In this document: positions 3,432-33,713 of the stretch, one piece after another
Layout of the letters: every line of letters begins with the position of its first letter
Numbering within the stretch: the stretch's first letter is position 1
Source of the DNA: Sulfurovaceae bacterium
GTDB lineage: Bacteria; Campylobacterota; Campylobacteria; Campylobacterales; Sulfurovaceae
NCBI GenBank assembly: GCA_028715055.1
Contig: JAQTLE010000007.1
Span: 1 to 35,315 of the forward strand
Length of the DNA: 35,315 nucleotides
Reading direction: 5' to 3'
Made by a program: the position numbers and the translations under genes
Notes under the pieces: model-generated
What the model was told of the DNA's origin: nothing
Seen by the model: the letters and a program-made list of their open reading frames with translations, nothing else
Database searches by the model: none

Positions 3432-3965
3432 ATGTCATTAACAATGGAAGAGGCCAAAGACATCACCCAAACTTTAATGCTCTTGGTGATGAAAATTAAT
3501 GGCACGAAAAATCAAGATGGAAGTATAAATACACCTGGCTTAATAACGCAACTTGAAGACTTGTATGAAAAATTGAATCCTGCAAGTATAAATTTTGTAA
3601 ATAATCAAGCTAGAAAAGTGGCCGAAGAGAGTTCAAAAAACATTGATCTAATGCTGCAAAACCAACAAAAAGCATTTGAAGATATGACAATTAGATATCA
3701 AAATATTCTTAAAGAACATGAAAATATTTTGAATCAAAAAATATCAAAGATCGACCAGCAAGCAAAAGACAGCGTAAAGATGTACGCGAACAATTTGGTT
3801 AATGATCTATCTAACAAAGTGGCCGTATCTGTTGCCAGTGTTACAGATAAAATTGATGATATCAAAAACATCAAAGATTATGTAAATATGAAATATCTTT
3901 ATGCCGGTACTGGAGCTATATTGGCTTTAATGATTGGAATGTTGATAGGCATCTATATAAGCTAG
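3432..3965 (+). CDS. traM: TraM-like coiled-coil protein with C-terminal membrane anchor
   Basis: A 177-aa protein. The middle (about 55-145) is rich in Gln, Lys, Glu, Asn and Asp with heptad-like spacing, suggesting a coiled coil. Residues about 155-175 form a single hydrophobic segment (LYAGTGAILALMIGMLIGIY) at the very C-terminus, so it is probably tail-anchored with its bulk in the cytoplasm. The third gene after traK and traL in IncP plasmids is traM, of similar size and layout, and the call rests mainly on that synteny. The product may tether relaxosome or ATPase components to the membrane, which is inference. Two hairpins follow the stop. Confidence 0.6.
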   Translation: MSLTMEEAKDITQTLMLLVMKINGTKNQDGSINTPGLITQLEDLYEKLNPASINFVNNQARKVAEESSKNIDLMLQNQQKAFEDMTIRYQNILKEHENILNQKISKIDQQAKDSVKMYANNLVNDLSNKVAVSVASVTDKIDDIKNIKDYVNMKYLYAGTGAILALMIGMLIGIYIS

Positions 3966-6916: not shown

Positions 6917-8116
6917 ATGATGCAAGAAATAATCAAACAAAAAAACTTAATTATTCCAACAGAAAATGAGGTTATTAAAAATAGAGTCTTTGGCACACCA
7001 ACATCTAAAATGACTAGACATCAAAAAGTTGCCTTTACTGTAATGATTAAAATTGCATACGACGCATTGAATATTGATCCAACTACGCGGGTGTTTGAAT
7101 TTCCTACTGATAGATTTTTTGAGTTAATGGGTATATCAACAGTAAGAAAACAATCACACTTATTTACACAAACTTTTATCGATGATGAGGGGTGGCAGCA
7201 AGATAGTGAAGAATATTCTCTTGAACGCACGCTCAAAGCGCTCGTAAATAAATCAATCGATATGCGTTTTAAAGATGTAGATGGGAAAACATATGCAGTT
7301 GAAAGTACGGCTTTGATATCTTACTTTAAACTCACGCGAAAAAAAGTGATCTTTGAATTTAGCGAATGGGTGCGGCATAAAATTTTTATTACTGACAATT
7401 CATATATTATGAAATTGCCAATAATTGCAACCTTTGATGGTGTTCATACTGTTACGCTTTTTGAACAAGTTGAACAAAGAAGAGATTTTTGCAGATGGGA
7501 AGTTTCAGTAAATACACTTAAACAAATTTTTGGATTAATCGACGGTGAATATGCCAAATTTTCTGATTTTAGAAAATGGTGTTTAGATAAACCTAGAGAC
7601 GAAATGAATAAAAAGACCAACTATACTGTTGCCTATGATTATGTAAAAAAAGGTAAAAAAATAGATAAGATTATTTTCACTTGGTATATAAATAAAACTT
7701 CTTTGATGGAATTTCAAAATTTCATAAGAACAAAGTTTATTAATCAAGCATTAGCCGAAATTCCTTCAAAAGACGGTACTTATCATTTGATACAGGTTTC
7801 GGCAGATGGACTCTTATATAATGCTAGAAACCCAAATATAAATTATACAACCACAAAAGCAAAAGCTCTTTGGCGTTGGATGTATGAAAATCAACATCTT
7901 TTGTTAATGAAAGAGCAAGCAGAAAACCTAGAGAATTTTAAAGAGAGTAATTTTACAAAATATTATGGTTGTGATTTAATCCTTGACGGTGAAAAATATA
8001 ACAATATTGTTTTAATACAACCTACTTCTTTAAAAAATAAATTAAAAGTAAAATTTTATGCCGGCGAGCTATTGGTGATGGAAGAAGAAGATTTTATCAA
8101 AAGTGTAATAATATGA
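6917..8116 (+). CDS. rep: Rep_3-family (RepB/RepE-like) replication initiator
   Basis: A 399-aa initiator. The N-terminal half shows the usual pattern of Rep_3 proteins with two winged-helix domains: an early MTRHQKVAFTVMIKIAYDAL helix, an LMGIS region, LERTLKALVNKSI, and then VTLFEQVEQRRDFCRWEVSVNTLKQIFG, which matches the Y/F-x-LYE...L.lFG region of these initiators. The protein would bind the upstream iterons as a monomer and open the origin. The C-terminal roughly 120 residues (after about 275) extend beyond the common Rep_3 core, with no fold I can name. The ribosome site AAGGAG is followed by ATGATG, so the true start may be 6917 or 6920. Confidence 0.85.
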   Translation: MMQEIIKQKNLIIPTENEVIKNRVFGTPTSKMTRHQKVAFTVMIKIAYDALNIDPTTRVFEFPTDRFFELMGISTVRKQSHLFTQTFIDDEGWQQDSEEYSLERTLKALVNKSIDMRFKDVDGKTYAVESTALISYFKLTRKKVIFEFSEWVRHKIFITDNSYIMKLPIIATFDGVHTVTLFEQVEQRRDFCRWEVSVNTLKQIFGLIDGEYAKFSDFRKWCLDKPRDEMNKKTNYTVAYDYVKKGKKIDKIIFTWYINKTSLMEFQNFIRTKFINQALAEIPSKDGTYHLIQVSADGLLYNARNPNINYTTTKAKALWRWMYENQHLLLMKEQAENLENFKESNFTKYYGCDLILDGEKYNNIVLIQPTSLKNKLKVKFYAGELLVMEEEDFIKSVII

Positions 8117-8155
8117 CATTTTGCAATATTTATCATATTTATTTATTAAGTTTGA

Positions 8156-8161
8156 TATAAT
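8156..8161 (+). promoter_or_regulatory. -10 box for the LprI-like/eexN pair
   Basis: TATAAT at 8156-8161 is preceded by the T-rich stretch TTTATTAAGTTTGA, with no good -35. This resembles the Campylobacter/Helicobacter vegetative promoter type. It lies 27 bp before the next start codon. Confidence 0.5.
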
Positions 8162-8187
8162 AAATAAACCGCCGCAAGGAGATTAAA

Positions 8188-8466
8188 ATGATCAAAAAAC
8201 AAATAATATTATTTGTTTGTGTTATTACTGTAGCTTTAAGTAATAATCAGGCCGAAGTAACAATTAATTCATCATTACAATTAATTGCACTTGAAAAGGA
8301 AATGAATATTATGTACAATAACGCATTGACACTGGCAATAAACAAACAAAAACTTAGAGATGAGCAAGAAATATTTTTGCTTGCAAGGAAAAATTGTTTA
8401 AACAATACTATGTGTTTAAAAACTGCTGTTGAAAACAGAATAGCACAGTTAAAAATATACAATTAA
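8188..8466 (+). CDS. Small exported LprI/DUF1311-like protein
   Basis: A 92-aa protein with an N-terminal signal peptide (KKQIILFVCVITVALSNNQA). The rest has the look of LprI/DUF1311 domains: LEKEMNIMYNNAL, then LRDEQEIFLLARKNC, and CLKTAVENRIAQLK, with two cysteines likely to form a disulfide. LprI-type proteins are periplasmic, and some inhibit lysozyme. On a conjugative plasmid this could protect the cell wall while the secretion channel is built, which is inference. The gene has a clear ribosome site (AAGGAG) and is followed 13 nt later by eexN, probably as one operon. Confidence 0.6.
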   Translation: MIKKQIILFVCVITVALSNNQAEVTINSSLQLIALEKEMNIMYNNALTLAINKQKLRDEQEIFLLARKNCLNNTMCLKTAVENRIAQLKIYN

Positions 8467-8479
8467 AAGGAGTAAAAGT

Positions 8480-8746
8480 ATGAAAAAATTAATTTTATCT
8501 GTAACACTCACATTCATTTATGTAGGATGTAGTAATAAGGCCGAAGAGACAAAAACTGTTGATTATTATCAAAACAATCCAACGCAAATGGATATAAAAA
8601 TAAAAGAGTGTCTAAATAATCCAGGCGAGCTTAAAGATACTCCAAATTGTAAAAATGCTGCCAAAGCTCAACAAATACTTTGGGGTAAATCAAATGTAAA
8701 TATTACACCAGGCGAAGGCAAACCAATGGGTGGCCGCCAATGGTAA
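8480..8746 (+). CDS. eexN: EexN-family entry-exclusion lipoprotein with a TrbJ-like C-terminal tail
   Basis: An 88-aa lipoprotein. The signal peptide ends in a lipobox at YVGC (Cys17). The mature part shows the EexN signature VDYYQNNP followed by NNPGELKDTPNCKNA. Such lipoproteins reduce mating between cells that already carry the same plasmid. The last 21 residues, starting WGKSNVNI and ending MGGRQW, are nearly the same as the end of TrbJ. The 66 bp encoding them are identical at 61 positions, stop codon included. The gene sits with the LprI-like gene on the plus strand, just upstream of the trb operon and facing the XRE gene. It may do the job of TrbK, which is missing between trbJ and trbL. 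Confidence 0.78.
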   Translation: MKKLILSVTLTFIYVGCSNKAEETKTVDYYQNNPTQMDIKIKECLNNPGELKDTPNCKNAAKAQQILWGKSNVNITPGEGKPMGGRQW

Positions 8747-8765
8747 AATTGTAATTTTTTAAATT

Positions 8766-9113
8766 CTATGATTGTTTTTGGTGATCTTCTATTTTTTTAA
8801 TTATGTCTTTTTTAATTTCTTCTATAAGCTGCGGAGGTGCATATTTGTTTAATATTTCTGCAATCTCCATCACATCTTTAGAGAAGTTAAAATTTGGTTG
8901 TATGAACATTTCTCCCCTACCATAGGTTAACCATATTGGATTAATATTATAGAGGTCTTGTAAAGCACAGAGCTCTATCCCTCTCAAATTTTTAACTTTC
9001 CCAGTCTCTATATCTGCCACTCTTTGTTTAGGTACATCCATTATTTCTGATAATTGTTTTTGAGTTAAGTTAAGTTCAATCCTTAATTGTTTAAGTCGTT
9101 TAGGCAAGGACAT
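8766..9113 (-). CDS. XRE-family transcriptional repressor
   Basis: A 115-aa protein with an N-terminal helix-turn-helix: LKQLRIELNLTQKQLSEIM, then DVPKQRVADIETGKVKNL (about 5-45). NINPIWLTYGRGEMF, typical of phage-type XRE regulators, follows. The C-terminal helix-rich part is probably for dimerisation. It is transcribed divergently from the trb operon and convergently with eexN, so it most likely controls the 9114-9262 intergenic region and itself. A palindrome at 9140-9152 is a candidate operator. It may serve the role that TrbA/KorB play on IncP plasmids. Confidence 0.8.
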   Translation of the reverse strand: MSLPKRLKQLRIELNLTQKQLSEIMDVPKQRVADIETGKVKNLRGIELCALQDLYNINPIWLTYGRGEMFIQPNFNFSKDVMEIAEILNKYAPPQLIEEIKKDIIKKIEDHQKQS

Positions 9114-9139
9114 TATTTTGGCACCTTTATAAGTTTATA

Positions 9140-9152
9140 TATTGCAACAATA
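9140..9152 (+). promoter_or_regulatory. Candidate operator in the XRE/trb divergent region
   Basis: TATTG, CAA, CAATA is a perfect inverted repeat with a 3-base centre, 27-39 bp upstream of the XRE start codon. It is a plausible binding site for that repressor. Confidence 0.45.
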
Positions 9153-9183
9153 CAGAAAAAAGCAAAAAAAGATAGAAAAACTA

Positions 9184-9212
9184 TTGACTTGTTGGATTTT
9201 TTCTAATATAAT
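9184..9212 (+). promoter_or_regulatory. sigma70 promoter of the trb operon
   Basis: TTGACT (9184-9189), a 17-base spacer and TATAAT (9207-9212) form a near-consensus promoter. It is 50 bp before the first ORF of the trb operon and next to the candidate repressor site. Confidence 0.75.
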
Positions 9213-9262
9213 TTCCATTATATGTATTAATTTTGCATTATATCATAAAAAAAAGGTAAACA

Positions 9263-9478
9263 ATGGGAAAAAGAAAGCCGGGCTCAATTGCAGATCAAAT
9301 TGATCAAAAGCTCAATCTTACTTTGGTCAAATACGCCGAATTAAGAGGTATCCCCGTAAGCAGCTTGAAAAGAAATTATATATCGCTTACGACAGCACAA
9401 ATATTAGCCCAAGATGGCATATATGCGCCATCTACAAAAACAAAACTACAATCACAAAACTCGGATCAAAAATGTTAA
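9263..9478 (+). CDS. 71-aa unknown protein at the head of the trb operon, possibly DNA-binding
   Basis: A small basic protein beginning MGKRKPGSIADQIDQ. The stretch LVKYAELRGIPVSSLKRNYIS has a helix-turn-helix-like shape. The C-terminus is polar. It is the first gene after the trb promoter and has a good ribosome site (AAAAAAGGTAAACA before ATG). Its end overlaps the trbB start by 7 nt, so it is cotranscribed and probably coupled. I do not recognise the family. A small regulator or an accessory relaxosome/T4SS protein is possible. Confidence 0.6.
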   Translation: MGKRKPGSIADQIDQKLNLTLVKYAELRGIPVSSLKRNYISLTTAQILAQDGIYAPSTKTKLQSQNSDQKC

Positions 9479-10413
9479 CCGACACTCAAAAACGGCTGCA
9501 CACCAAACTTCGGAACGAATTAGGCAGAGAAGTAGTGGCAGCTCTCGAGGACAACGACGTTATAGAAATAATGTTAAACAGCGATAACACAATGTGGATT
9601 GATAAACTTTCATCCGGTATGGAAAAAATTGAAAAGCACAGCTGCTCTGCTCAAATTGCAATACACACGATCGCGTCTTACCTCGACACAAACATCACCA
9701 TAGAAAATCCAATTTTGGAATGTGAGTTGCCACTGGACGGCTCTCGTTTTGAGGCACTTGTTCCCCCAGTCGTTTCGCATCCTAGCTTTACAATTCGCAA
9801 AAAAGCAAAAAAGATTTTTACGCTAGATGACTATGTAAAAAATAAAATAATCACACCCCAACAAAAAGGAGTAATCGAGGCAGCAATACAACAACATAAA
9901 AATATATTAATCGCAGGTGGCACTGGTTCGGGTAAGACCACACTTACAAATGCGATAATAGATAGCATTTCTACAATCACACCAACCGATCGGATGGTTA
10001 TCATAGAAGATACGGCGGAGATCCAATGCCAGTCTGAAAATAATGTAATTTTTCGTGCGACGGAATTTGCGCCAATGGTTCGTTTGCTAAAAGCAACGAT
10101 GAGATACCGCCCGGATAGAATACTTGTCGGTGAGGTGCGTGGTGGTGAGGCATTAACCCTGCTCAAAAGTTGGAATACCGGCCATCCTGGCGGTGTTGCA
10201 ACGGTTCACGCTAATAATGCTTATGCGGCACTGGTTCGATTAGAGCAGTTAGTCGCGGAAGGCACTATAGCTGACAGTAGAACTGTTATCGCCGAGGCAA
10301 TAGATATTGTGATTTTTATTGAAAAAACACAACAAGGCAGAAAAGTGACGGATCTGCTTGAAGTAGAGCGTTACGATTTCCAAAAAAACAAATATATTAC
10401 AAGGAGTATATAG
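9472..10413 (+). CDS. trbB: TrbB, VirB11-type secretion ATPase
   Basis: A 313-aa protein, close to RP4 TrbB (about 320 aa). Walker A is GGTGSGKTT (149-157). The Asp box region reads VIIEDTAEIQ (177-186), Walker B lies near RILVGEVRGGE (216-226), and the His box is GHPGGVATVHANN (237-249). The N-terminal domain (1-110) has the expected VirB11-like mixed fold. It forms the hexameric cytoplasmic ATPase that powers pilus biogenesis and substrate transfer. It starts the conserved trbBCDE order. The start overlaps the upstream 71-aa gene, and trbC begins directly after the stop. Confidence 0.93.
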   Translation: MLTDTQKRLHTKLRNELGREVVAALEDNDVIEIMLNSDNTMWIDKLSSGMEKIEKHSCSAQIAIHTIASYLDTNITIENPILECELPLDGSRFEALVPPVVSHPSFTIRKKAKKIFTLDDYVKNKIITPQQKGVIEAAIQQHKNILIAGGTGSGKTTLTNAIIDSISTITPTDRMVIIEDTAEIQCQSENNVIFRATEFAPMVRLLKATMRYRPDRILVGEVRGGEALTLLKSWNTGHPGGVATVHANNAYAALVRLEQLVAEGTIADSRTVIAEAIDIVIFIEKTQQGRKVTDLLEVERYDFQKNKYITRSI

Positions 10414-10722
10414 ATGAATAAAAAGAATGTAGGTTTTTTGTTAATAATGATGTTAATTTTAACTGACATGGTTTTTGCAGGTTCGGGTATGCCGTGGGAT
10501 TCGGCTTTAAATAAAGTGACAGATGCAATTACTGGCCCAGTCGCCGGAACAATCGCGTTGGTAGCCGTGGTCGGTGCAGGTGCCGCGCTGATTTTTATGG
10601 GCCAAGAAATGGGGCAATTCATGAAGGCTCTCGTTTATGTTGTTATCGTGGGCGGAATAATCGTAGGCGCTAGTTCAATCATTGGCTTCCTCGGCGGCAA
10701 TACTGGTGGAGCCTTAATCTAA
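10414..10722 (+). CDS. trbC: TrbC, major pilin (VirB2-like)
   Basis: A 102-aa prepilin. A signal peptide (to about VFAG, residues 20-23) is followed by two hydrophobic segments (about 43-62 and 72-95), separated by a short polar loop (QEMGQFMK). The layout is that of TrbC/VirB2 pilins. In RP4 the C-terminus is trimmed and the chain is cyclised by TraF; a TraF homologue is encoded at 4054. It lies between trbB and trbD, with the trbD start overlapping its last base (TAATG). Confidence 0.9.
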   Translation: MNKKNVGFLLIMMLILTDMVFAGSGMPWDSALNKVTDAITGPVAGTIALVAVVGAGAALIFMGQEMGQFMKALVYVVIVGGIIVGASSIIGFLGGNTGGALI

Positions 10723-10997
10723 TGCTTCATACCATTCCAATTTACCGCGCACTTAATAAGCCGATGTTGTTTATGGGCGGAGAGCGCGAATTAATGATGT
10801 TAGCCGCATTGGTGTCGCTCACTCTCATTTTTGTTGCTTTGTCTGTCCAAAGTGCAATACTAGGAATAGTGCTTTGGTTGTTTGCAGCAGCAGTCTTAAG
10901 AATGATGGCAAAAAAAGATCCTTTGATGAGTAAAATTTTTGTTCGTCAAGCTAGATACAAAAAATATTATAGAGCGGTTGCTTCGGCAACCGCTTAA
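10722..10997 (+). CDS. trbD: TrbD, VirB3-like inner-membrane T4SS component
   Basis: A 91-aa protein beginning IPIYRALNKPMLFMGGEREL, the usual start of TrbD. Two close membrane segments (about 27-45 and 45-58) and a basic C-terminal part (MAKKDPLMSKIFVRQARYKKYY) follow. It is thought to work with the TrbE/VirB4 ATPase. Its last codons (AVASATA and stop) encode a perfect 9-bp hairpin with a TTCG loop. Confidence 0.9.
   Translation: MLHTIPIYRALNKPMLFMGGERELMMLAALVSLTLIFVALSVQSAILGIVLWLFAAAVLRMMAKKDPLMSKIFVRQARYKKYYRAVASATA
10973..10994 (+). terminator. Hairpin with TTCG tetraloop in the last codons of trbD
   Basis: AGCGGTTGC (10973-10981) pairs perfectly with GCAACCGCT (10986-10994) around TTCG. 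Only TAATTT follows, with no strong T run. It is therefore better read as a partial terminator, attenuator or 3'-end stabiliser for the trbB-C-D message. Confidence 0.55.
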
Positions 10998-11006
10998 TTT
11001 AGACAT

Positions 11007-11080
11007 AGCGGCGTTTAATTTATAAAGTCCTTTTATATAAACTCCCTCCCCCTTTAGTAGTCTCAACGCTAAACGCCGCT
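11007..11080 (+). promoter_or_regulatory. Long-range stem in the trbD-trbE gap
   Basis: AGCGGCGTTTA (11007-11017) is exactly complementary to TAAACGCCGCT (11070-11080), closing a 52-nt AT- and C-rich loop. The pair lies in the only sizeable gap (124 bp) in the first part of the trb operon, 41 bp before the trbE start. A regulatory RNA fold, or a mark of processing between the pilin genes and trbE, is possible. Confidence 0.5.
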
Positions 11081-11121
11081 TTGTGTGAATTATCACAAAT
11101 AAATACATCGGAGTAAAAAAG

Positions 11122-13596
11122 ATGCTTAATTTACAAGAATTTAGAGATACCACAAAAGGTTTTGCAGATCTACTTAATTATGCCTTCCTGGCCGACGATG
11201 GTGTTGTAATTAACAAAGATGGCAGTTTGTCCGCCGCTTTTCAATATCAAGCACCGGATGTTTTCTCTGCAACAGAGATTGAACGCAATACAACAGTAAG
11301 AGAGATAAATCAATTACTTACTAAACTAGGTGGTGGTTGGTCTATACAATTTGATAGTATAAACACACCGCTTAATAGCTACACAGAAACCAATGAAAGT
11401 TATTTTAATGATAAAGTCTGCAAAATGATTGATGAAGAGAGAAGATATTTTTTTCTTAATTCTAAAGATTTATATACTTCTAACACTTATATTACATTGA
11501 CGTATTTACCTCCTCTTCGTTCTAAATCAAAAATTGCAGATATGATGTTCGATGATACAACATCAAATAAATCACAAAATTCAATAGGAGACAAGATCCT
11601 TAAATATTTTAATGAAAAATTAAATGAATTTGAGGCACTCGCCAAATTGTCTTTTCTTGAGATCAAAAGATTAAAACAAGAAAAAATAATGAATCAAGAT
11701 GGAAGCTATACTTATCATGATAAGCTTCTGTCTTTTCTAAATGCTTGCATTGTAGATAAAAATAATCCTATAGTGTACCCAACTGCAAATATGTATATAG
11801 ATACACTTTTAGCCTATGATTTTTTTACTGGTGTAACTCCTAAAATAGACAATAAATTTATACAAATAATAACGATTGAAGGCTATCCTCTTGAGAGCTA
11901 TGCAAATATTCTATATAACCTTTCGCAACTAGATCTTGAGTGCCGTTGGAATACAAAATTTGTTTTCTTGGATAATTTTGAAGCTTTAACAAAATTAGAC
12001 CAAATAAGAAAAAAATGGAAACAAAAAGAACGCGGCCTTCTAACACAAATTTTTAATCCACAGTCAACAAAATATGATCTTGATGCTGTTCATATGGTAC
12101 AGCAAACCGACAGTGCGATCGCCGATGTAAATAGCGGATTGCTTGCATATGGGTACCATAATACAAGTGTTGTTGTTTTCAATACAAATCGTGAGGCTGT
12201 TGAAGATGCAGCGATGAGAGTCAAACAAGTTTTTGAAAAAAATGGTTTTGTATCAAGAATTGAAGACATAAATACAGTTGAGGCTTATCTAGGTTCTTTG
12301 CCCGGGCATATAACTCCAAACATACGAAGATCATTGATTGGCAGCATGAACCTCGCTCATTTGTTGCCTTTATCTACTATGTGGCAAGGCAATAAATATA
12401 ATGAGTGTGATAAATATTCTCCACACTCACCGGCACTGCTAAGAGCTGTAGCCGGAACGACACCATTTAATCTTAATCTTCACGTGGGCGATATCGGACA
12501 CACTCTAATTTTCGGCCCAACTGGAGCCGGTAAATCGACGTTGCTCGCAACTATCGTGGCGCAGGCAAGAAGATATCACAATGTTCAAATTTTTGCCTTT
12601 GATAAAGGCAAATCACTTTATCCGCTAACAGCGGCTGCCGGAGGTGATCATTATGATATCGGTGGAGACGAGGATAAATTATCATTTGCTCCTCTTTCTA
12701 ATTTAAAAACACAAAATGATATTGCCTGGGCAGAAGATTGGATACTTACCTTGATTGAGCTACAAGGGATTAAGCCTACACCACACCACAAAGAGCTTAT
12801 ACACCATGCTTTAAAACTTCATGTTGATAATAATTCTACGTCTATTACGGACTTTATATCAAATGTACAAAGTTCGGAATTGAGAGCTGCTCTTGGACAT
12901 TACTCAATCGCTGGCGCAATGGGCCGACTACTAGATGCAGAAACCGATAATTTATCTATGAGTAACTTTAGTGTTTTTGAAATAGAAGAGCTTATGAATT
13001 TAAAGATAGAAGACGCGGTACCGGTTTTGCTTTATTTGTTCAATAGAATAGAAAAATCATTAGATGGCCGGCCATCTTTTTTGGTTTTAGATGAGGCTTG
13101 GATAATGTTGGGCCATCAAGTTTTTAGAGATAAGATTAGAGAATGGCTAAAGGTTCTACGCAAGGCAAATTGTGCGGTTATTTTAGCAACACAATCACTA
13201 TCAGATGCTGCCAAAAGTGGAATACTTGATGTGCTGCAAGAGAGCTGCCCTACAAAAATTTTATTGCCAAATCCGGAAGCCCAAAATAGAGGAACCGAGA
13301 ATAATTGGGGGCCGTATGATTATTACAAATCGTTTGGTTTAAATGAAAGAGAAATAGAAATAATTTCAAAGGCAAAACCAAAAAGAGAATATTACTATAA
13401 AAGCATGTATGGATCTCGATTGTTTAATCTTGTATTGGGCGAATTTGCTCTTTCGTTTGTAGGTGCCAGCAGCAAACATGATATCGCAAAAATAAAAGAG
13501 TTAAAAACTCAATATGTGGAGTGGGTGCCTAAATGGCTTGAATTTAGAAACGTTGATAATAATATAATAAATTATTATAATAATTTAGAGCTGTAG
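11122..13596 (+). CDS. trbE: TrbE, VirB4-type ATPase
   Basis: An 824-aa protein, the expected size for TrbE. The N-terminal part has the CagE/TrbE/VirB domain (start LQEFRDTTKGFADLLNYAFLADDGVVINKDGSL; IEGYPLESYANILYNL near 250). The C-terminal ATPase domain has Walker A FGPTGAGKST (about 464-473), Walker B FLVLDEAWIML (about 652-662), and ATQSLSDAAKSG after it. It is the conserved energising ATPase of the T4SS at the inner membrane. A 31-nt stretch at 11888-11918 (encoding ESYANILYN) recurs in reverse orientation in the gene at 32613. The gene has its own ribosome site (CGGAG) after a structured gap. Confidence 0.95.
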   Translation: MLNLQEFRDTTKGFADLLNYAFLADDGVVINKDGSLSAAFQYQAPDVFSATEIERNTTVREINQLLTKLGGGWSIQFDSINTPLNSYTETNESYFNDKVCKMIDEERRYFFLNSKDLYTSNTYITLTYLPPLRSKSKIADMMFDDTTSNKSQNSIGDKILKYFNEKLNEFEALAKLSFLEIKRLKQEKIMNQDGSYTYHDKLLSFLNACIVDKNNPIVYPTANMYIDTLLAYDFFTGVTPKIDNKFIQIITIEGYPLESYANILYNLSQLDLECRWNTKFVFLDNFEALTKLDQIRKKWKQKERGLLTQIFNPQSTKYDLDAVHMVQQTDSAIADVNSGLLAYGYHNTSVVVFNTNREAVEDAAMRVKQVFEKNGFVSRIEDINTVEAYLGSLPGHITPNIRRSLIGSMNLAHLLPLSTMWQGNKYNECDKYSPHSPALLRAVAGTTPFNLNLHVGDIGHTLIFGPTGAGKSTLLATIVAQARRYHNVQIFAFDKGKSLYPLTAAAGGDHYDIGGDEDKLSFAPLSNLKTQNDIAWAEDWILTLIELQGIKPTPHHKELIHHALKLHVDNNSTSITDFISNVQSSELRAALGHYSIAGAMGRLLDAETDNLSMSNFSVFEIEELMNLKIEDAVPVLLYLFNRIEKSLDGRPSFLVLDEAWIMLGHQVFRDKIREWLKVLRKANCAVILATQSLSDAAKSGILDVLQESCPTKILLPNPEAQNRGTENNWGPYDYYKSFGLNEREIEIISKAKPKREYYYKSMYGSRLFNLVLGEFALSFVGASSKHDIAKIKELKTQYVEWVPKWLEFRNVDNNIINYYNNLEL

Positions 13597-13611
13597 TTAA
13601 AAACGATCTTG

Positions 13612-13668
13612 GGCTCATTAGAGCCTTTAGATTTGATGAAGCCCACTTTGTGAGTTTCACAAAATCTA
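13612..13668 (+). promoter_or_regulatory. Structured leader of trbJ (first copy of a repeated element)
   Basis: A small hairpin (GGCTC, ATTA, GAGCC at 13612-13625) is followed by a 41-nt element (13628-13668) starting TAGATTTGATGAAGCCC and ending CACAAAATCTA. Its ends pair. TTTAGATTT at 13626-13634 is complementary to AAATCTAAA at 13662-13670. It ends just before the trbJ ribosome site. A nearly identical 43-nt copy lies at 22781-22823 before another operon. Confidence 0.6.
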
Positions 13669-13684
13669 AAAAGAAAGGAAAACA

Positions 13685-14476
13685 ATGAAACAAAGTAAAA
13701 GAATTTTTACAAGTTTTATAACGGCTTCTGCATTAGTCCTTTCAACGGCTAATGCAGGTACTGTGGGCGGTTTCGGTGGGTCAACCGAAATAACGCAACT
13801 CGCAAATAATTCACAGTTGGCAGCTCAATATGGAAAGCAGGTACAACAGTATGCGACGCAGATCCAGCAATACCAAACAGCGGTGCAGCAGTTTGCCAAT
13901 CAAGTACAAAGCTATAAGTTGATGTTGCAAAACATTGGTACACTTCCGCAAACACAGTGGAATCAATTTGCTTCTAGTGTTAATAAAATGCGTCAGATCA
14001 TGGATAACACAGCAGGAATGACTTATACCGCTGCAAACTATGATCAAATGTTCAAACAAATGTATCCAGGATATCAGAAATTGCTCGATAGTGGCAATGT
14101 GGATCCTACTAGCATTTATAAAAGTTTAGACAAACAAAAAACTGCAACAATCAATGATTCTCTCAAAAGATTAAATCTTACTCAAGCAGATCTTGAGAGT
14201 GATACAAGTACCATGAGAGCACTACAAAACGTAAGTCAATCCGCCGAAGGTCAGCTAGGAGCTATTCAAGCAGCTAACGAAATTGCTTTACATCAAACCA
14301 ATACTCTCAAGCGGCTACATCAAACAATGATGATGCAAGCTAATATGCAAGCTCAAGCAATCGCAGCAGATCAACAAAACAAAGACGCGGTAAAAGCTCA
14401 AGAGGCGCAATGGGGTAAATCAAATGTAAATATTGCACCAGGCGAAGGCAACACAATGGGCGGTCGCCAATGGTAA
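13685..14476 (+). CDS. trbJ: TrbJ, VirB5-like periplasmic T4SS protein
   Basis: A 263-aa exported protein. The signal peptide ends near STANAG (20-25). The mature part is Gln-rich and helical (QQYATQIQQYQTAVQQFANQ and later coiled regions), as in TrbJ/VirB5 family proteins, which act at the pilus tip or in the periplasm. The C-terminal 21 residues (WGKSNVNI ... GGRQW) are shared with the EexN lipoprotein. The start is preceded by AAGAAAGGAAAACA. The last codons overlap the trbL start. In the Ti-plasmid order trbK follows trbJ; here it does not. Confidence 0.88.
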   Translation: MKQSKRIFTSFITASALVLSTANAGTVGGFGGSTEITQLANNSQLAAQYGKQVQQYATQIQQYQTAVQQFANQVQSYKLMLQNIGTLPQTQWNQFASSVNKMRQIMDNTAGMTYTAANYDQMFKQMYPGYQKLLDSGNVDPTSIYKSLDKQKTATINDSLKRLNLTQADLESDTSTMRALQNVSQSAEGQLGAIQAANEIALHQTNTLKRLHQTMMMQANMQAQAIAADQQNKDAVKAQEAQWGKSNVNIAPGEGNTMGGRQW

Positions 14477-15717
14477 AAAAAATATTAATTGTCTTTGGTA
14501 TATTTTTCTTTTTTTCAACCGCTTCTTTTGCAGCGCAAGAAAAAAATATACCAACGCAGGTGCAAGAAAAGTTTGAGCAGAAAGTTCAAACTTTTTATCC
14601 AAAGATCGAATCAGCTGCTAAAAATGTATTGTTTTCTCTAGCAACAATTCAATTAGTTTTGACTTTTGGCTTTATGGCCATGAGAGGTGAGCTGGAGCTA
14701 GGCGGTATTTTTGCACAATTGGTAAAAACCATTTTGATTGTTGGTTTCTTTTTGTTCGTACTGGAATCGCCGCAATATTTAAAGTCAATATATCAAGGCT
14801 TTGATAAACTGGGCGTAACCGCTGGCGGAAACCAAGCCAGTATGGACGAAATCACCAATCAATTTATAAACATGTGGAAAAAAATCTATGATAGTGTTAG
14901 CATATGGGAGCCGGGTGCCGCTATATTTTATGTAATAGTCGGAGCCATTGCCAGCGTCGCATTACTTCATCTTGTAGGTACAGCACTTATGTTTTATGCT
15001 TTTACGATTTTTAGCATATATGTAGGTATATTTTTCATGGCTTTTGGTGCTTTTGATCAAACTCGGTCATGGGCTTTTCATGCAATCACTAACGTTGTAC
15101 GTTGGGGTGTGAAATGGATGATGATCTTGTTGCTAATGTCTATTACATTTACTCTCGTTAATGATGCACTAAGCAGCGCAACTAATAATATTGATTCAAT
15201 GATTGTATTGCTTATTGTCTCCATTTTAATGGTTTCTATCAACAACGGCCTATCCGCGTTTGTAGATGGCTACTTCTCCGGAATGGGTGGAGCGGACAAT
15301 AACAGAGGTATGCAAATGTTAGCAGCAGCAGCATCGGCTGGGGCCGGTGCTGCAATAGGTGCTGCAACCGGTGCAGGTGCCGGAGTAATGGCAGCAAGCG
15401 ACGCGGTAAAAGCCGCTAAAGCAGGCAATCCTGACGGAGGTGCAGGCTTAAAAGATTATGCTAAAGCGGCTGGCGGAGCAATGGGCTCTTCTTTCAAGGG
15501 TGGAGTAGAGGGGGCAAAACAAGGCTTTTTATCCGCCCTCACCCAACCGCCAGGATTTGGTAAGACCAGTTCCGGATCTTCAAGCAGCGGCATGAGTGGC
15601 GGATCATCGGGTTCAAAAGAGGTGCCACTTGGTACAGATAGCGGTTTCGGAGGCGTTGACGGTACTATCGGCAATGCAATTACGGAACCAAAGCCTGATC
15701 CAAACGTGGTTAGTTAA
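14470..15717 (+). CDS. trbL: TrbL, VirB6-like polytopic inner-membrane protein
   Basis: A 415-aa protein with a signal-like N-terminus (ending FAAQ near 20) and a set of membrane segments between about 50 and 265. An Ala/Gly/Ser-rich C-terminal tail (for example SSGSSSSGMSGGSSGS) follows, as is usual for TrbL/VirB6. It is thought to form part of the inner-membrane channel. The start ATG overlaps the end of trbJ by 7 nt. The low-complexity tail has a visibly higher GC content than the rest. Confidence 0.9.
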   Translation: MVKKILIVFGIFFFFSTASFAAQEKNIPTQVQEKFEQKVQTFYPKIESAAKNVLFSLATIQLVLTFGFMAMRGELELGGIFAQLVKTILIVGFFLFVLESPQYLKSIYQGFDKLGVTAGGNQASMDEITNQFINMWKKIYDSVSIWEPGAAIFYVIVGAIASVALLHLVGTALMFYAFTIFSIYVGIFFMAFGAFDQTRSWAFHAITNVVRWGVKWMMILLLMSITFTLVNDALSSATNNIDSMIVLLIVSILMVSINNGLSAFVDGYFSGMGGADNNRGMQMLAAAASAGAGAAIGAATGAGAGVMAASDAVKAAKAGNPDGGAGLKDYAKAAGGAMGSSFKGGVEGAKQGFLSALTQPPGFGKTSSGSSSSGMSGGSSGSKEVPLGTDSGFGGVDGTIGNAITEPKPDPNVVS

Positions 15718-15734
15718 TTAAAAGGAGTAAAAAT

Positions 15735-16394
15735 ATGTCGGATAAAAATAAATCTGTAAATCCGTATTTAGACGGACGTCGCGAATGGAACGAGAGATAT
15801 GGTAGCTATATATCGCAAGCTAAAAATTGGAGAATATTCGCATTTTTGAGCCTCTTAATAGCTTTAATGGCCGTAGCAGGTGTTATTTATATTGGTTCAC
15901 AAAGCAAAGTAAAGCCGGTTTTGGTCGAAATAGATAAATTAGGTACTCCAATAGAAGCGAGAGAGATACCTGATATGAAAGTAGATCAAAAGGTAATTAA
16001 ATACGCTCTTGGTGATTTTATTACAAATTATAGAACAGTCTATAAGAGTGATCCAAATATACAAAAACAGATGATTTATAAAGCTTATAAATATTTGTCC
16101 GATTCATTGCCGGCTTATACACAAATAAGTGAAAATTATCAAAACAATTCCCCTTTTGTTTCACAGTTCGATAAACAAATAGAAATTGTTAGTGTATTGC
16201 CTCTTGGCGAAAAAACTTATCAAATTGATTGGATTGAAAAAACAATCGATCGTTCCGGCAAAACGATATCAATTGATAAGTATAGAGCTACGGCAAATAT
16301 TGTATTAAAAACACCGGCTACAGAAAAAGATATTATGAATAATCCGGTCGGACTATTCATTAAAGATATCGCTTTCCAAAAAACATTAAACTAA
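15735..16394 (+). CDS. trbF: TrbF, VirB8-like assembly factor
   Basis: A 219-aa bitopic protein. A short cytoplasmic part has the characteristic NPYLDGRREWNERYGSYISQAKNWR. One membrane segment follows (about 35-55), then a periplasmic NTF2-like domain that includes PVLVEIDKLGTPIEAR and a conserved YQIDWIEKTID stretch. VirB8-type proteins nucleate the T4SS inner-membrane complex. The ribosome site is AAAAGGAGTAAAAAT. trbG follows after 10 nt. Confidence 0.92.
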   Translation: MSDKNKSVNPYLDGRREWNERYGSYISQAKNWRIFAFLSLLIALMAVAGVIYIGSQSKVKPVLVEIDKLGTPIEAREIPDMKVDQKVIKYALGDFITNYRTVYKSDPNIQKQMIYKAYKYLSDSLPAYTQISENYQNNSPFVSQFDKQIEIVSVLPLGEKTYQIDWIEKTIDRSGKTISIDKYRATANIVLKTPATEKDIMNNPVGLFIKDIAFQKTLN

Positions 16395-16404
16395 GGAGAA
16401 AAAA

Positions 16405-17277
16405 ATGAAAAATAAAATTATAACTTCAACATTGCTTGCAACTATGCTAATAACTGGAGCAGCTGCATATAGTGACATGGAAAATCACTCTTTGCAACTT
16501 GCAAAAAAATTTATAAATGGTCATGATAAAAGTTTTTACCGTCCGGATGGTGGCGTGGTATTTTTACACGGCGGCACGCTGCCTAGCGTTTTAACTGCCC
16601 CATTGAAGCTGACCGATATACAATTAGAACCAGGTGAAATTATCAAAGAGGTACAACTCGGAGATACGGTAAGATGGCAGGTATCGCCATCTATAAGTGG
16701 TAGCGGAGATAGTCAAGTGAGTCATGTAATTGTAAAACCAACGGATAGTGGTTTGGCAACAACACTTGATATTTTTACCGATAGAAGATCCTATCACATA
16801 AATCTAAGATCTACATCAAAAAATTATTTTCCAATTGTTGCTTTTGCTTACCAAGATCAACTACGAAATTTTTGGTCAGATTATCAAAAGAAGCTCCAAC
16901 AACAAAAAGATAATAACACCATCAAAGATCCTGATATCGGATCAAAAAACGCAGAAGATCTCGATTTTAATTACGACATAAGCGGAAGCACAAGCTGGAA
17001 GCCGACAAGAGTTTATAATGATGGCGTAAAAACATATATTTTTATGCCACGCTCCATGAACTCAAAAGATGCGCCAGTGCTGCTGGCTATAGATGGTTCA
17101 GGAAGCCAAAAAATTGTGAATTATAGAATTGTAAACAATAAATTTATTGTGGATAATCTATTTGATAAAGCGATTTTACTAATCGGTGCCGGCAGTAGCC
17201 AAGATAAGGTTGTAATTACACATTCATCCCGCTCTTATCGTAATAGAGGCTCAAATTTGAGCGTGTTAGAAAACTAA
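16405..17277 (+). CDS. trbG: TrbG, VirB9-like core-complex protein
   Basis: A 290-aa exported protein with an N-terminal signal peptide (to about AAAYS). The body matches the CagX/VirB9/TrbG pattern: LQPGEIIKEVQLGDTVRW-like text here reads LEPGEIIKEVQLGDTVRW, then TTLDIFTDRRSYHINLRS, and near the end VYNDGVKTYIFMPRSM. It forms the outer-membrane core complex with TrbI and the TrbH lipoprotein. An AAGGAG ribosome site precedes it. Confidence 0.93.
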   Translation: MKNKIITSTLLATMLITGAAAYSDMENHSLQLAKKFINGHDKSFYRPDGGVVFLHGGTLPSVLTAPLKLTDIQLEPGEIIKEVQLGDTVRWQVSPSISGSGDSQVSHVIVKPTDSGLATTLDIFTDRRSYHINLRSTSKNYFPIVAFAYQDQLRNFWSDYQKKLQQQKDNNTIKDPDIGSKNAEDLDFNYDISGSTSWKPTRVYNDGVKTYIFMPRSMNSKDAPVLLAIDGSGSQKIVNYRIVNNKFIVDNLFDKAILLIGAGSSQDKVVITHSSRSYRNRGSNLSVLEN

Positions 17278-17284
17278 GGAGTAA

Positions 17285-17677
17285 ATGATGTATAAAATAA
17301 TAATAATTATGGCCGCTATTTTATTTACCGGTTGTGCAACACCAAGCTTTAATACAACTAACACGGCTTATTTGGTAAATGATTTTTTATACCAAACTAA
17401 AAATTCATACCCGGTGTCTAGCTCTAATATATATATAAAGCCTGATTCGGCGTATAAAAAGCAACTATCAGATGCTTTGAGAAAAGCCGGCTATAAAATA
17501 GAAAGTAGCAGCTCCAGTGCGAACGTTATAATAGATATCAAAATTGGGCGTATTGAAAAGGATGTATATAACCTTTCGTACATAGTAAATGATCAAATGT
17601 TATCTCGTGCATATATGATAAACAAATCATCTGCTCCAATAACAAATTGGTCAAAAACAATGGGCGGTGTAAAATGA
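17285..17677 (+). CDS. trbH: TrbH-like outer-membrane lipoprotein
   Basis: A 130-aa lipoprotein with the lipobox FTGCA (Cys17). The mature part contains the alternating SGYKIESSSSSANVIIDIKIG-type pattern (here AGYKIESSSSSANVIIDIKI) seen in TrbH and other periplasmic lipoproteins. Position between trbG and trbI and the lipobox support a VirB7-like stabilising role. The TGA overlaps the trbI ATG (ATGA at 17674-17677). An 18-nt piece (17620-17637, encoding NKSSAP) is repeated in trbI. Confidence 0.8.
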   Translation: MMYKIIIIMAAILFTGCATPSFNTTNTAYLVNDFLYQTKNSYPVSSSNIYIKPDSAYKKQLSDALRKAGYKIESSSSSANVIIDIKIGRIEKDVYNLSYIVNDQMLSRAYMINKSSAPITNWSKTMGGVK

Positions 17678-18900
17678 TAGGTGAAGAAAATCCACAAGGA
17701 ATCAAGTTGAAAAAACCGCTTCCGGATGGAATTAAAAAACTTAATTCCAAGCCTTTCCTTTTTTTGGGAGCAATAACAATTATTGTTATATTGTCTATCA
17801 TTTATGCAATGAGCCAAAGAGGTATAAAAAAAGACTCAAATGACACGGCAAAACATGAAGATGTTATAGAAGCTGTCAATGATGATAGCGTAGGCAATAT
17901 TATAAAAAATGCTAATCAAGCAAGTATGGTGGATGAAAACAAATCATCTGCTCCGCTTGTAGTGAATGGAAGCAACATGAATGACTATAATGTTACAATG
18001 CCTCAACAAAAAAATACACCTCTTGATGATGCCGCCCAAAAAGCAGCAGCAGATCAATTGCAAAGATCAATTGATGCTAAAAATTCGCCAACAGCTTTAG
18101 ATAATACAAAATCTCAAAGCAACAATCAAAGTTCGGAAATTGGAAATATTTTAGCCAATGTTATGAATCCAAATCAAAACCAAAATCAAGGACAAGGCGC
18201 AAATTCTTTAGCCGAAATTTTGGCAGCTCAAAATCCGCAAAAAGCAAGCATAAATCAAGACTCTAATAGCTTTATGAAGAGTACGCAAGCTTCTTATGAT
18301 TATTTACCGTACAAAAAAACACCACAAATCAGCAAATATGAGCTTAAAACTGGAAGTGTAATTCCAGGGGTGATGATAAGTGGAATTAACAGCGAGCTTC
18401 CGGGCATGTTAATAGGACAAGTTAGTCAAAATGTATATGACAGCGCAACTGGACATTACTTGTTAATACCACAAGGATCAAGACTTGTGGGCCAATATAG
18501 TGCCGACGTACAATACGGACAATCAAGAGTGCTTATAGCATGGAACCGCATCATATTTCCGGATGGACAATCACTAAACATCGGTGCAATGAATGGCACC
18601 GATCAAGCCGGTTATGCAGGATTTGAGGATAAGGTTAATAATCATTACATGAGAATCTTCGGTTCTGCGCTTTTGATATCTGTTATTGGAGGAGAGTTTA
18701 GTTTTTCTAACGGTCATATAGCAATAAATCAACAAGCTCAAAGTGCTAATAGCGGCACTACGATATCTCAAGTTGGAAATACTATGCTTGAAAAAAATCT
18801 TGCAGTATCCCCGACCATAGAGATACGCCCAGGATATCAGTTTAATATCTTTGTTACAAAAGATATGCAGCTTGAGAACCTGCCAAAATTTAGAGGCTAA
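17674..18900 (+). CDS. trbI: TrbI, VirB10-like core-complex protein
   Basis: A 408-aa protein. It has a short cytoplasmic N-terminus, one membrane segment (LFLGAITIIVILSIIYAMS, about 28-46), and a long Asn/Gln/Ser-rich periplasmic linker. The C-terminal VirB10 barrel domain (about 215-408) includes ELKTGSVIPGVMISGINSEL, PQGSRLVGQY and IFPDGQSLNIG. VirB10 proteins span both membranes and transmit energy from the ATPases. I use ATG 17674 (overlapping the trbH stop) rather than an upstream in-frame ATG at 17647 that lies inside trbH and lacks a ribosome site. Confidence 0.93.
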   Translation: MIGEENPQGIKLKKPLPDGIKKLNSKPFLFLGAITIIVILSIIYAMSQRGIKKDSNDTAKHEDVIEAVNDDSVGNIIKNANQASMVDENKSSAPLVVNGSNMNDYNVTMPQQKNTPLDDAAQKAAADQLQRSIDAKNSPTALDNTKSQSNNQSSEIGNILANVMNPNQNQNQGQGANSLAEILAAQNPQKASINQDSNSFMKSTQASYDYLPYKKTPQISKYELKTGSVIPGVMISGINSELPGMLIGQVSQNVYDSATGHYLLIPQGSRLVGQYSADVQYGQSRVLIAWNRIIFPDGQSLNIGAMNGTDQAGYAGFEDKVNNHYMRIFGSALLISVIGGEFSFSNGHIAINQQAQSANSGTTISQVGNTMLEKNLAVSPTIEIRPGYQFNIFVTKDMQLENLPKFRG

Positions 18901-29382: not shown

Positions 29383-29396
29383 GTTAAAATAACCTA
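29380..29396. terminator. Small hairpin between convergent genes
   Basis: TAGGTTA (29380-29386) and TAACCTA (29390-29396) pair over AAA. It overlaps the stop codons of both convergent genes and could weakly end transcription from either side. Confidence 0.35.
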
Positions 29397-30121
29397 CCTT
29401 GCTCAAATGTATTAATTTGTTCTTGAGTATAAATCAAGCTCTTGTTTTCTACTTCAACATTGTTGATAGTTTCAATTTTTTTATGTAATATGTTATGAGC
29501 ATTACTCATATAGTATGCTGGAGTTCTCCAAATGCTCCATATCTCCAAAGATAAAGAGTTCCCATGTATTACCTCGGCCGGTATGTGTAAAAGTGTTAAT
29601 TGGATATAACACATGTGTACACATAAAATATCAACATCAACGGCTTGTGCCATCATTTCTTGTTGAAAATTTATACCTGCTTTCATCATTGCGTCTGCTC
29701 TCGCGATAATCATTCCTCCGGATCCACAAGCTGGTTCACTCATTATTTCTATTTCACTTGCTTTGTCTCCTAAAATTTGAGCCATAAATTTTGAGATATG
29801 ATAAGGTGTAAAAAATTGTCCTTTGTATTTATTGCCAAGATCTAAAAGATGAAAACACTCACCAAGGAAATCGCCAAATTTATCAGTAAGTGCAAAGATT
29901 ATATAACTTAGTAATTCCGGAAATATTTCGGCTTCTTTTTTTGTGTACTTTTTTATTATTGACAAATACTCTTCTTCCAGCGTCTGTGATTTTTCAAAAG
30001 GTTGTCTCAAACTAATTGCTGCCATATGGCAAAAATCCGAAAAGATCTCCCAATTTTGATATTTATATCCAAGGCTTGTAATAGTTTTTACAAATTGTTT
30101 TTTTGCTTGTTCGTATGTCAT
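29384..30121 (-). CDS. N-6 adenine methylase-like protein lacking a visible catalytic NPPY motif
   Basis: A 245-aa protein related to the methyltransferase part of type I HsdM and other N6 enzymes. It shows YKGQFFTPYHISKFM (99-113) and the SAM-binding motif EPACGSGGM (129-137). A later HGNSLSLEIWSIWRTPAYYM (186-205) stands where the family usually continues to the catalytic (D/N)PP(Y/F). I find no such motif. Similar short forms occur on integrative and conjugative elements. It may methylate plasmid DNA by a variant active site, may only bind SAM, or may be inactive. The ribosome site is AGGAGAAGATT before ATG. It follows the 110-aa gene with a 9-nt gap, at the end of the long minus-strand operon. 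Confidence 0.75.
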   Translation of the reverse strand: MTYEQAKKQFVKTITSLGYKYQNWEIFSDFCHMAAISLRQPFEKSQTLEEEYLSIIKKYTKKEAEIFPELLSYIIFALTDKFGDFLGECFHLLDLGNKYKGQFFTPYHISKFMAQILGDKASEIEIMSEPACGSGGMIIARADAMMKAGINFQQEMMAQAVDVDILCVHMCYIQLTLLHIPAEVIHGNSLSLEIWSIWRTPAYYMSNAHNILHKKIETINNVEVENKSLIYTQEQINTFEQGRLF

Positions 30122-32612: not shown

Positions 32613-32900
32613 TCATTTCATTTCTTTGTATTTTCTAAACTCAAGAAATTCTTTGAAGAGATTATATTCTTTGCTCTTCTCTTGAGAGCTATGCAAATAT
32701 TCTATATAATCATCTAGTTTAGAAATTTTACCAGTAACTAAAAACTCTTGCAAATCTTCATTGGTAAAATATTTTTCAATTAAAGTAATAATAGGTCTAT
32801 TTTCTTTTTTCCAATTATTCCAACTTTGTCGTGAGAATTTGAATATTTCCATAACTATTTTATAATCTAGAACATTTTTTAATCTCAAAAATTTATGCAT
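32613..32900 (-). CDS. Fourth tandem paralog: small HTH-like protein with a trbE-derived patch
   Basis: A 95-aa protein. It shares with the three genes upstream a short helix-turn-helix-like start (FSRQSWNNWKKENRP), then LIEKYFTNEDLQEFLVTGKI and SKL. The following region is different in each paralog. Here it includes DYIEYLHSSQEKSKE, whose DNA (32679-32709) is an exact 31-nt match to trbE 11888-11918 in reverse orientation. It overlaps the previous gene by 1 nt (TAATG). The function is unknown; DNA binding is suggested by the N-terminus. It is the last of the small genes before the relaxase. Confidence 0.65.
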   Translation of the reverse strand: MHKFLRLKNVLDYKIVMEIFKFSRQSWNNWKKENRPIITLIEKYFTNEDLQEFLVTGKISKLDDYIEYLHSSQEKSKEYNLFKEFLEFRKYKEMK

Positions 32901-33181
32901 TATTTGTCCTCCAATAATGATTTTATTTCTGTTACTTTATGTAGTAAGTCCTTGTTTTTGATAAGAGTTTTAAGTTCCTCGATATCAATATCTTTTATAA
33001 GTTCTAATTTTTCAATTTTCCCACTACTTAGATATTCATCTAATTCTTGTTCAGAAAAAGCATACTCAAGCAAAGAGAATATTTTTGGAGCCTCTTTTTT
33101 ATCTTTTTGCTTTGGTGATTTTTTCCATCTATAATAAGAAACGTCAGATATTTGCATAAGTTCTGTAATTTGTTTTTTCAT
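32900..33181 (-). CDS. Third tandem paralog: small HTH-like protein
   Basis: A 93-aa protein with the family start MKKQITELMQISDVSYYRWK, a longer basic insert (KSPKQKDKKEAPK), and then FSLLEYAFSEQELDEYLSSG, KIEKLE and a helical C-terminus (IDIEELKTLIKNKDLL). The same blocks occur in the genes at 33178, 33444 and 32613. The ATG overlaps the stop of the gene before it (ATGA). It is probably a DNA-binding or protein-binding adaptor. The family is not recognised. Confidence 0.65.
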   Translation of the reverse strand: MKKQITELMQISDVSYYRWKKSPKQKDKKEAPKIFSLLEYAFSEQELDEYLSSGKIEKLELIKDIDIEELKTLIKNKDLLHKVTEIKSLLEDK

Positions 33182-33447
33182 TGGGGTGATCCTTGCATGA
33201 GTTGTTTGATCTCTTGGAATTTCATAATGATCTCTTTATTGTCAAGGATAAATTTAACGTCCTCGATGGATAATCCCTCGAGAGCTTCCAATTTCGTAAT
33301 GCTCCCGGTGTCAATAAATTCCTCAAGGTCTTTTTGTGTAAAATATTTTTCGAGGAGTTTAATAATTAGTCTGTTTTGTTTCTTCCACTTATAGAACCCG
33401 CTCACCGAACAATCGAGAATTTTTGAGAAAATATCTTCTTTTTTCAT
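33178..33447 (-). CDS. Second tandem paralog: small HTH-like protein
   Basis: An 89-aa protein with the shared blocks CSVSGFYKWKKQNR, LLEKYFTQKDLEEFIDTGSI and TKLEALEG, and a helical C-terminus (IEDVKFILDNKEIIMKFQEI). The stop overlaps the next start, and its own start overlaps the stop of the first paralog (ATGA both times). The S-x-x-x-x-Y-x-W-K-K core is like the recognition helix of small XRE-type domains. Confidence 0.65.
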   Translation of the reverse strand: MKKEDIFSKILDCSVSGFYKWKKQNRLIIKLLEKYFTQKDLEEFIDTGSITKLEALEGLSIEDVKFILDNKEIIMKFQEIKQLMQGSPQ

Positions 33448-33713
33448 TTGGTGATCTCCCCGGACGTTTTTAATGCCTCTAAAAGCTCGGAGAGCATTTT
33501 TGAGTTGTTTTGTACCTCTGATAAAATGAGGTCTTGAGTACCTTGCTTGATCCCCTCGTATTTTGAAATTTTCCCGGTACTCAAAAACTCCTCAAGGTCT
33601 TTTTTGGTAAAGTATTTTTCAATTAACATTATTAATTTAATATGACTTTTCTTTCTCCAAACATAATAAGATTTATCTGAAATATTACACAACCTACTCA
33701 TAATTTCTCTCAT
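33444..33713 (-). CDS. First tandem paralog: small HTH-like protein
   Basis: An 89-aa protein with ISDKSYYVWRKKSH, LIEKYFTKKDLEEFLSTGKI and SKYEGIKQ, and a helical C-terminus (LILSEVQNNSKMLSELLEAL). The first three blocks recur in the three genes that follow, while the C-termini differ in sequence and length. The start overlaps the MobC-like gene stop by 4 nt. Placement right after mobC and before the relaxase suggests a role in the relaxosome or in regulation of the transfer operon. Confidence 0.65.
   Translation of the reverse strand: MREIMSRLCNISDKSYYVWRKKSHIKLIMLIEKYFTKKDLEEFLSTGKISKYEGIKQGTQDLILSEVQNNSKMLSELLEALKTSGEITK

Follow-up and report, generated by a model that had tools for sequence, protein, structure and literature searches.

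Conjugation genes of the window and the tail shared by EexN and TrbJ

The DNA analysed (the window, 35,315 nucleotides in all) is a plasmid contig of a Sulfurovaceae bacterium carrying a Rep3-type initiator, a trbB-I set, traG and a relaxase (Table 1). Within this conjugative MPF_T region lies eexN, which is found upstream of trbB and not between trbJ and trbL. Its product scores 73.4 bits against the entry-exclusion family NF033894 (curated cut-off 33 bits), and its N-terminal hydrophobic stretch ends, as read from the translation, in the lipobox YVGC with Cys17, as in a lipoprotein. Recipient exclusion activity is predicted for this protein. The product of trbJ matches TIGR02780 over residues 26-254 with 123 bits (curated cut-off 100.55).

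Table 1. Features of the conjugation region, with positions in the window
Feature	Position	Strand	Remarks
eexN	8480-8746	+	88-aa entry-exclusion lipoprotein; domain to residue 65, tail from residue 68; NF033894, E-value 1e-20
EexN tail WGKSNVNITPGEGKPMGGRQW-stop	8681-8746	+	copy of the TrbJ tail
Repeat, eexN copy, full extent	8651-8748	+	98 nt, 83% identical, ungapped
trbB, trbC, trbD, trbE (VirB11, VirB2, VirB3, VirB4)	9472-13596	+	
trbJ (virB5)	13685-14476	+	263-aa exported pilus-tip protein; TIGR02780, E-value 1.3e-35
TrbJ tail WGKSNVNIAPGEGNTMGGRQW-stop	14411-14476	+	
Repeat, trbJ copy, full extent	14381-14478	+	98 nt, 83% identical, ungapped
trbL (virB6)	14470-15717	+	overlaps trbJ end by 7 nt; PF04610, E-value 5.5e-20; proposed docking partner of the tail
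trbF, trbG, trbH-like, trbI (VirB8, VirB9, VirB7 position, VirB10)	15735-18900	+	

The original prediction had noted that these two genes end almost alike, and this is indeed the case, with 61 of 66 nucleotides identical (stop codon counted) and 18 of 21 residues matching. As the ungapped repeat extends to 98 nucleotides, the likeness starts about 10 codons earlier, at KxAxKAQ, and no other direct repeat within positions 7000-16500 comes near it in strength. The tail is not part of the NF033894 model, which stops at residue 65; since the model matches only residues 2-65 of EexN, the tail lies outside the family domain. No further copy of the tail was found elsewhere in the window, and whole-genome searches with EexN and TrbJ returned these two copies only. 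A plasmid collection searched with the window tail alone gave no match, so the tail is plasmid-specific, and a scan of viral contigs found no relative. In AlphaFold models built without an alignment (pLDDT 50-56) both tails are coil at low confidence, that of TrbJ following the last helix. Judged by sequence, EexN is an exported lipoprotein whose tail is closer to the C-terminus of its own TrbJ (score 115) than to the tails of non-partner VirB5 proteins (18 or less), the two features by which such proteins are recognized here.

Just upstream of eexN (8188-8466, forward strand) there is a gene for a 92-aa protein with a probable signal peptide, for which only a weak LprI-type match was obtained (E-value 0.11). 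On the reverse strand, the plasmid has a gene for a 245-aa protein (29384-30121) that by eye is an N-6 DNA methylase (HsdM-like), as well as four tandem overlapping genes (32613-33713) coding for paralogous proteins of about 90 residues with the pattern SxxxWxxWKKxx..LxEKYFTxxDLxEFLxTGKISKLE. A relative of these paralogs is encoded on contig C11 of the same genome (L007:7758-8360).

Tail pairs in other conjugative plasmids

The original prediction had made its mimicry reading depend on the EexN and TrbJ tails co-varying from plasmid to plasmid, and over 26 non-redundant pairs they co-vary strongly. These pairs were picked so that their VirB5 bodies are less than 60% identical, and represent Campylobacterota, Alpha- and Gammaproteobacteria, including R388, R751, IncN, IncX4, and IncI2. 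The mean score of an EexN/TrbK C-terminus against its own VirB5/TrbJ C-terminus was 44.5, compared with 16.3 for non-partners, a mean reached by none of 100,000 shuffles, and the true partner ranked first in 18 of the 26. As controls on these pairs, other parts of VirB5, as well as the N-terminus and the domain of EexN, gave no comparable excess, the EexN domain lying slightly above chance (5,612 of 100,000 shuffles reach its value). Chance is ruled out as the source of the match by the shuffles and controls. The signal holds when the eight most similar pairs are removed (29.6 vs. 16.0, z 9.8) and outside Campylobacterota (35.4 vs. 16.6, z 11.0). When the comparison is anchored at the protein ends (25.3 vs. 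2.8), it vanishes after trimming 12 residues from VirB5; the likeness is confined to the C-terminus of VirB5/TrbJ. Between plasmids, the tails are otherwise unrelated. In an annotation-blind scan of every stop-terminated frame near VirB5, which leaves out identical tails such as that of L030, a look-alike stood out at 15 of 34 loci (P ≤ 0.01).

A number of well-known plasmids possess such pairs. TrwJ of R388 ends in GNQGMPTIQ and its Eex in GDGMPKIR, while the IncN pair ends in NFVFGTGGDVTASPSIN and LFVHGKEDGEINSPKI. IncP is represented here by R751, in place of RP4, with its TrbJ/TrbK pair ending in RQGSYRASPARTW and RRGGDFKPSPKREW; the IncX4 pair ends in YKQQQMNAPIPTIQ and YKNQQQDAPVPQIN despite its eexN being 4 kb away. 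The match also holds in IncI2 and in additional IncP-like plasmids. Other examples are an Escherichia coli plasmid (SSGSLRNVNW/SSGSLRHINNW), an Agrobacterium plasmid (AAKRGNLGVQPM/AAKREGLNVQPM) and a Rhizobium plasmid (RKRMDTMGAALK/RLERMGKSLGG). Contig C11 of the genome to which the window belongs has a second VirB5-EexN-TrbL set, with other tails that are yet mutually alike (SKKDTRDYNY/APDTTDYSKW). Searches of Campylobacterota and Gammaproteobacteria gave more pairs, in which as many as 26 residues are identical (L030); most of the pairs from Alphaproteobacteria were obtained from the plasmid collection and by a scan of genomes. Left out of the set were EexN-like genes of Campylobacter with an end resembling KIGFPKDE and no VirB5 in the flanks examined. 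Profile searches with the TrbK families TIGR04361 and TIGR04360 gave no match in any collection searched.

Besides EexN, at least three other unrelated lipoprotein scaffolds end in the tail of the partner. One of these is TrbK. The others lie directly after trbJ, and include lipopeptides of just 26 mature residues (L206, L207), lipopeptides of 32-44 residues (L210, L219, L220), and a 110-residue lipoprotein that is beta-rich and has a weak lipocalin-like match at most (L215, L216). The carriers are alike in being anchored by a lipid and in having the tail of the partner TrbJ. Altogether, short lipoproteins directly downstream of trbJ that end in its tail were identified at L206, L207, L209, L210, L212, L215-L217, and L219-L221; most have no family assignment and their genes are probable unannotated exclusion genes.

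There are exceptions. In L172 and L173, EexN does not match its VirB5. The L168 protein (3501-3923) has two EexN-like domains, with the VirB5-like tail HAPIPKFSGMGD located between them and not at the end. No look-alike was found in the stretch examined at L211, L214, L223, and L224.

Tails that switch together and TrbL as a proposed partner

Within the family to which TrbJ of the window belongs, its relatives show a mean identity of 60% over the bodies and of 27.5% over the last 12 residues. TrbJ proteins of L219 and L220 have bodies 73% identical and share almost nothing in their last 12 residues, and their lipoproteins have switched too. Similarly, TrbJ proteins of L215 and L216 (76% identical) end in IIGDETPIGY and IIGDESRVTKW, with the lipoproteins ending in IIGDETPIGY and IIGDEKRVTKW, respectively. 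In pTet-type Campylobacter plasmids, VirB5 bodies are 83-92% identical and the tails unrelated, and each EexN, encoded in another operon about 9 kb or more away (distances from region coordinates), carries the tail of its own VirB5. Local gene linkage is ruled out as the whole story for EexN, with the match spanning 4 kb in IncX4, 5.7 kb in the window, and about 9 kb or more in the pTet-type plasmids.

Some plasmids have more than one eexN. Three occur in tandem on contig C2 of genome G164 (L230:4633-5615), two of them ending in the tail of the resident VirB5 and the third in a foreign tail, SFKKEPLDPSEFFKKK, also found in the EexN of another genome (L027). Contig C2 of G092 (L234) has two copies with different tails. 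Multiple copies on one plasmid may form a repertoire of exclusion specificities.

VirB5 is located at the pilus tip and binds between two VirB6 subunits before extrusion, with no receptor known (PMC9259494, PMC12624023). Where two TrbJ bodies are 55% or more identical, the corresponding TrbL proteins are 62-90% identical (mean 74.5) if the tails match and 24-41% (mean 32.5) if they do not. In one crossed case (L220/L213 vs. L220/L219), TrbL follows the tail and not the TrbJ body; between L219 and L220, the genes on either side keep 72-82% identity. As TrbL switches with the tail, TrbL/VirB6 appears to be the best candidate for the docking partner. Joint recombination is an alternative explanation for this co-switching, because trbL always adjoins trbJ, and in the proteobacterial sets the correspondence of VirB6 with the body of VirB5 is no worse than that with the tail.

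Proposed entry exclusion by mimicry and its alternatives

That the tails change together suggests that plasmids recognize and block their own kind by molecular mimicry. We consider it likely that EexN is an exclusion lipoprotein whose working end is a lipid-anchored decoy copy of the TrbJ/VirB5 tail of its own plasmid, and that this end sets the specificity of exclusion. In a cell with the resident plasmid, EexN would display the tail on the periplasmic side. On insertion of the tip by a donor that has the same machine, the EexN tail would fill the site needed by the donor TrbJ tail, most likely on TrbL/VirB6 or between VirB5 subunits, and with this docking site filled, entry of DNA would be blocked. 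Since tails differ between plasmids, each plasmid would block only its own kind. The mimicry put forward in the original prediction is supported in that the tails co-vary, switch together and match even across about 9 kb or more between their genes; from this we infer that they compete for a docking site.

Published results for IncP plasmids fit this proposal. When the RP4 tra2 genes and traF were tried in a recipient, only trbJ and trbK gave protection (PMC11045733). That recipient TrbJ protects is as mimicry predicts, because TrbJ carries the same tail. Control by the tail over exclusion and its specificity is a prediction from the sequences; truncation data exist for IncP, where removal of the C-terminus is reported to abolish TrbK function (PMC8923210).

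A recent duplication was the other origin proposed in the original prediction, and codon sharing bears this out for the window, where the same codon encodes 16 of the 19 identical residues, compared with an expected 8.5. The same is seen in L030 (23/23) and L068 (13/14), and with nearly all codons shared in these three pairs, copying must have been recent. In pTet-type plasmids of G084, G164 and the more distant G092, the tail shared by VirB5 and EexN is identical at 60/60, 75/75, and 74/75 nucleotides. Such figures would also be expected if the tail had no role in exclusion and merely reflected a recent duplication, or gene conversion, involving trbJ and eexN. This is very improbable, as the match persists in pairs with randomized codons and is found repeatedly, in many groups of plasmids and on several scaffolds that are unrelated. 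In the other 23 pairs taken together, 82 of 166 identical residues share their codon where about 71 are expected, and with sharing so near to chance, the likeness there must be old and kept at the protein level. It would appear that copying renews the match and selection keeps it. The trbJ stop overlaps the trbL start at 14470-14476 in CAATGGTAA, and the eexN copy ends in the same string with no trbL after it, a hint that eexN acquired its tail by copying from trbJ.

The tail could otherwise serve as an assembly signal in the donor, with both proteins docking on the same resident subunit, for example VirB6, and EexN acting as a component of the machine or a tuner of its assembly. Export of both EexN and TrbJ would suit such a role, as would the switching of TrbL with the tail and the finding that the exclusion gene of plasmid pKPC_UVA01 is needed in the donor as well (PMC8923210). 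However, RP4 trbK alone protects a recipient (PMC11045733), deletion of an exclusion gene of pKPC_UVA01 does not lower transfer (PMC8923210), and several of the proteins with the tail are mere lipopeptides, too short to contain a structural domain, which makes this role quite improbable. It is also unlikely that the tail is a self-tag, by which recipient EexN binds the donor VirB5 tail directly, like with like and with no third site. Near-identical tails fit homotypic pairing as well as they fit competition, and VirB5, as the tip subunit, comes into contact with the recipient (PMC12624023), but the tails are often rich in proline and glycine with no shared pattern for self-pairing, many pairs are only about half identical and the co-switching of TrbL is left unexplained.

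If the decoy reading is extended to MPF_T plasmids in general, the VirB5/TrbJ tail would be a fast-changing barcode that docks on VirB6/TrbL in mating, and any periplasmic lipoprotein of the recipient with the same tail, be it EexN, TrbK, or a bare lipopeptide of 26 residues, would block that machine only. The match would be renewed by copying from trbJ, and some plasmids would hold several eexN tails as a repertoire against others. We regard this general principle as evenly poised between right and wrong.

How the small Eex/TrbK lipoproteins of IncP, IncN, IncW, and IncX plasmids block entry is left unexplained in the recent reviews of type IV secretion systems consulted, one of which covers TraS/TraG and TraT (PMC12624023), while in another exclusion is not mentioned (PMC12857230). 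No description of the EexN/VirB5 tail match was found in the open-licence papers searched, and an earlier report elsewhere is possible. The tail rule would name the active part of these proteins, which is testable with short peptides, and would predict which plasmids exclude each other. It would also find unannotated exclusion genes as tail look-alikes downstream of trbJ and point to the docking site of a pilus-tip protein with no known receptor. Peptides that jam plasmid transfer could come from it.

Like EexN of the window, Eex of IncN and IncW (EexN family, NF033894) is a small lipoprotein encoded in a conjugation region, with members of this family usually located between virB5 and virB6. 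TrbK of the IncP plasmids RP4 and R751 (TIGR04359) is likewise an exclusion lipoprotein that acts in the recipient and has an essential C-terminus, with that of R751 also ending in its TrbJ tail. However, its domain sequence is unrelated and its gene normally lies between trbJ and trbL, whereas eexN of the window is upstream of trbB. In the SXT-IncC (Eex/TraG) and R64 (ExcA/TraY) systems, the recipient protein recognizes the donor machine in a plasmid-specific manner, TraG and TraY being in the VirB6 role. The TraS/TraG system of F resembles our proposal in the same way, a recipient protein recognizing the donor machine in a plasmid-specific pairing (PMC12624023). In all three, unlike in our proposal, the recipient protein is described as binding the VirB6-like protein of the donor, not as mimicking one of the donor's subunits.

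The published TrbK of pKPC_UVA01, which was included as a control (L227 21029-21487), also brings about entry exclusion, which is dose-dependent and for which its C-terminus is essential (PMC8923210). It differs in having no lipobox and no match to the tail of its TrbJ, and in acting in both donor and recipient with a broad range. Its name notwithstanding, this TrbK probably represents another type of exclusion protein.
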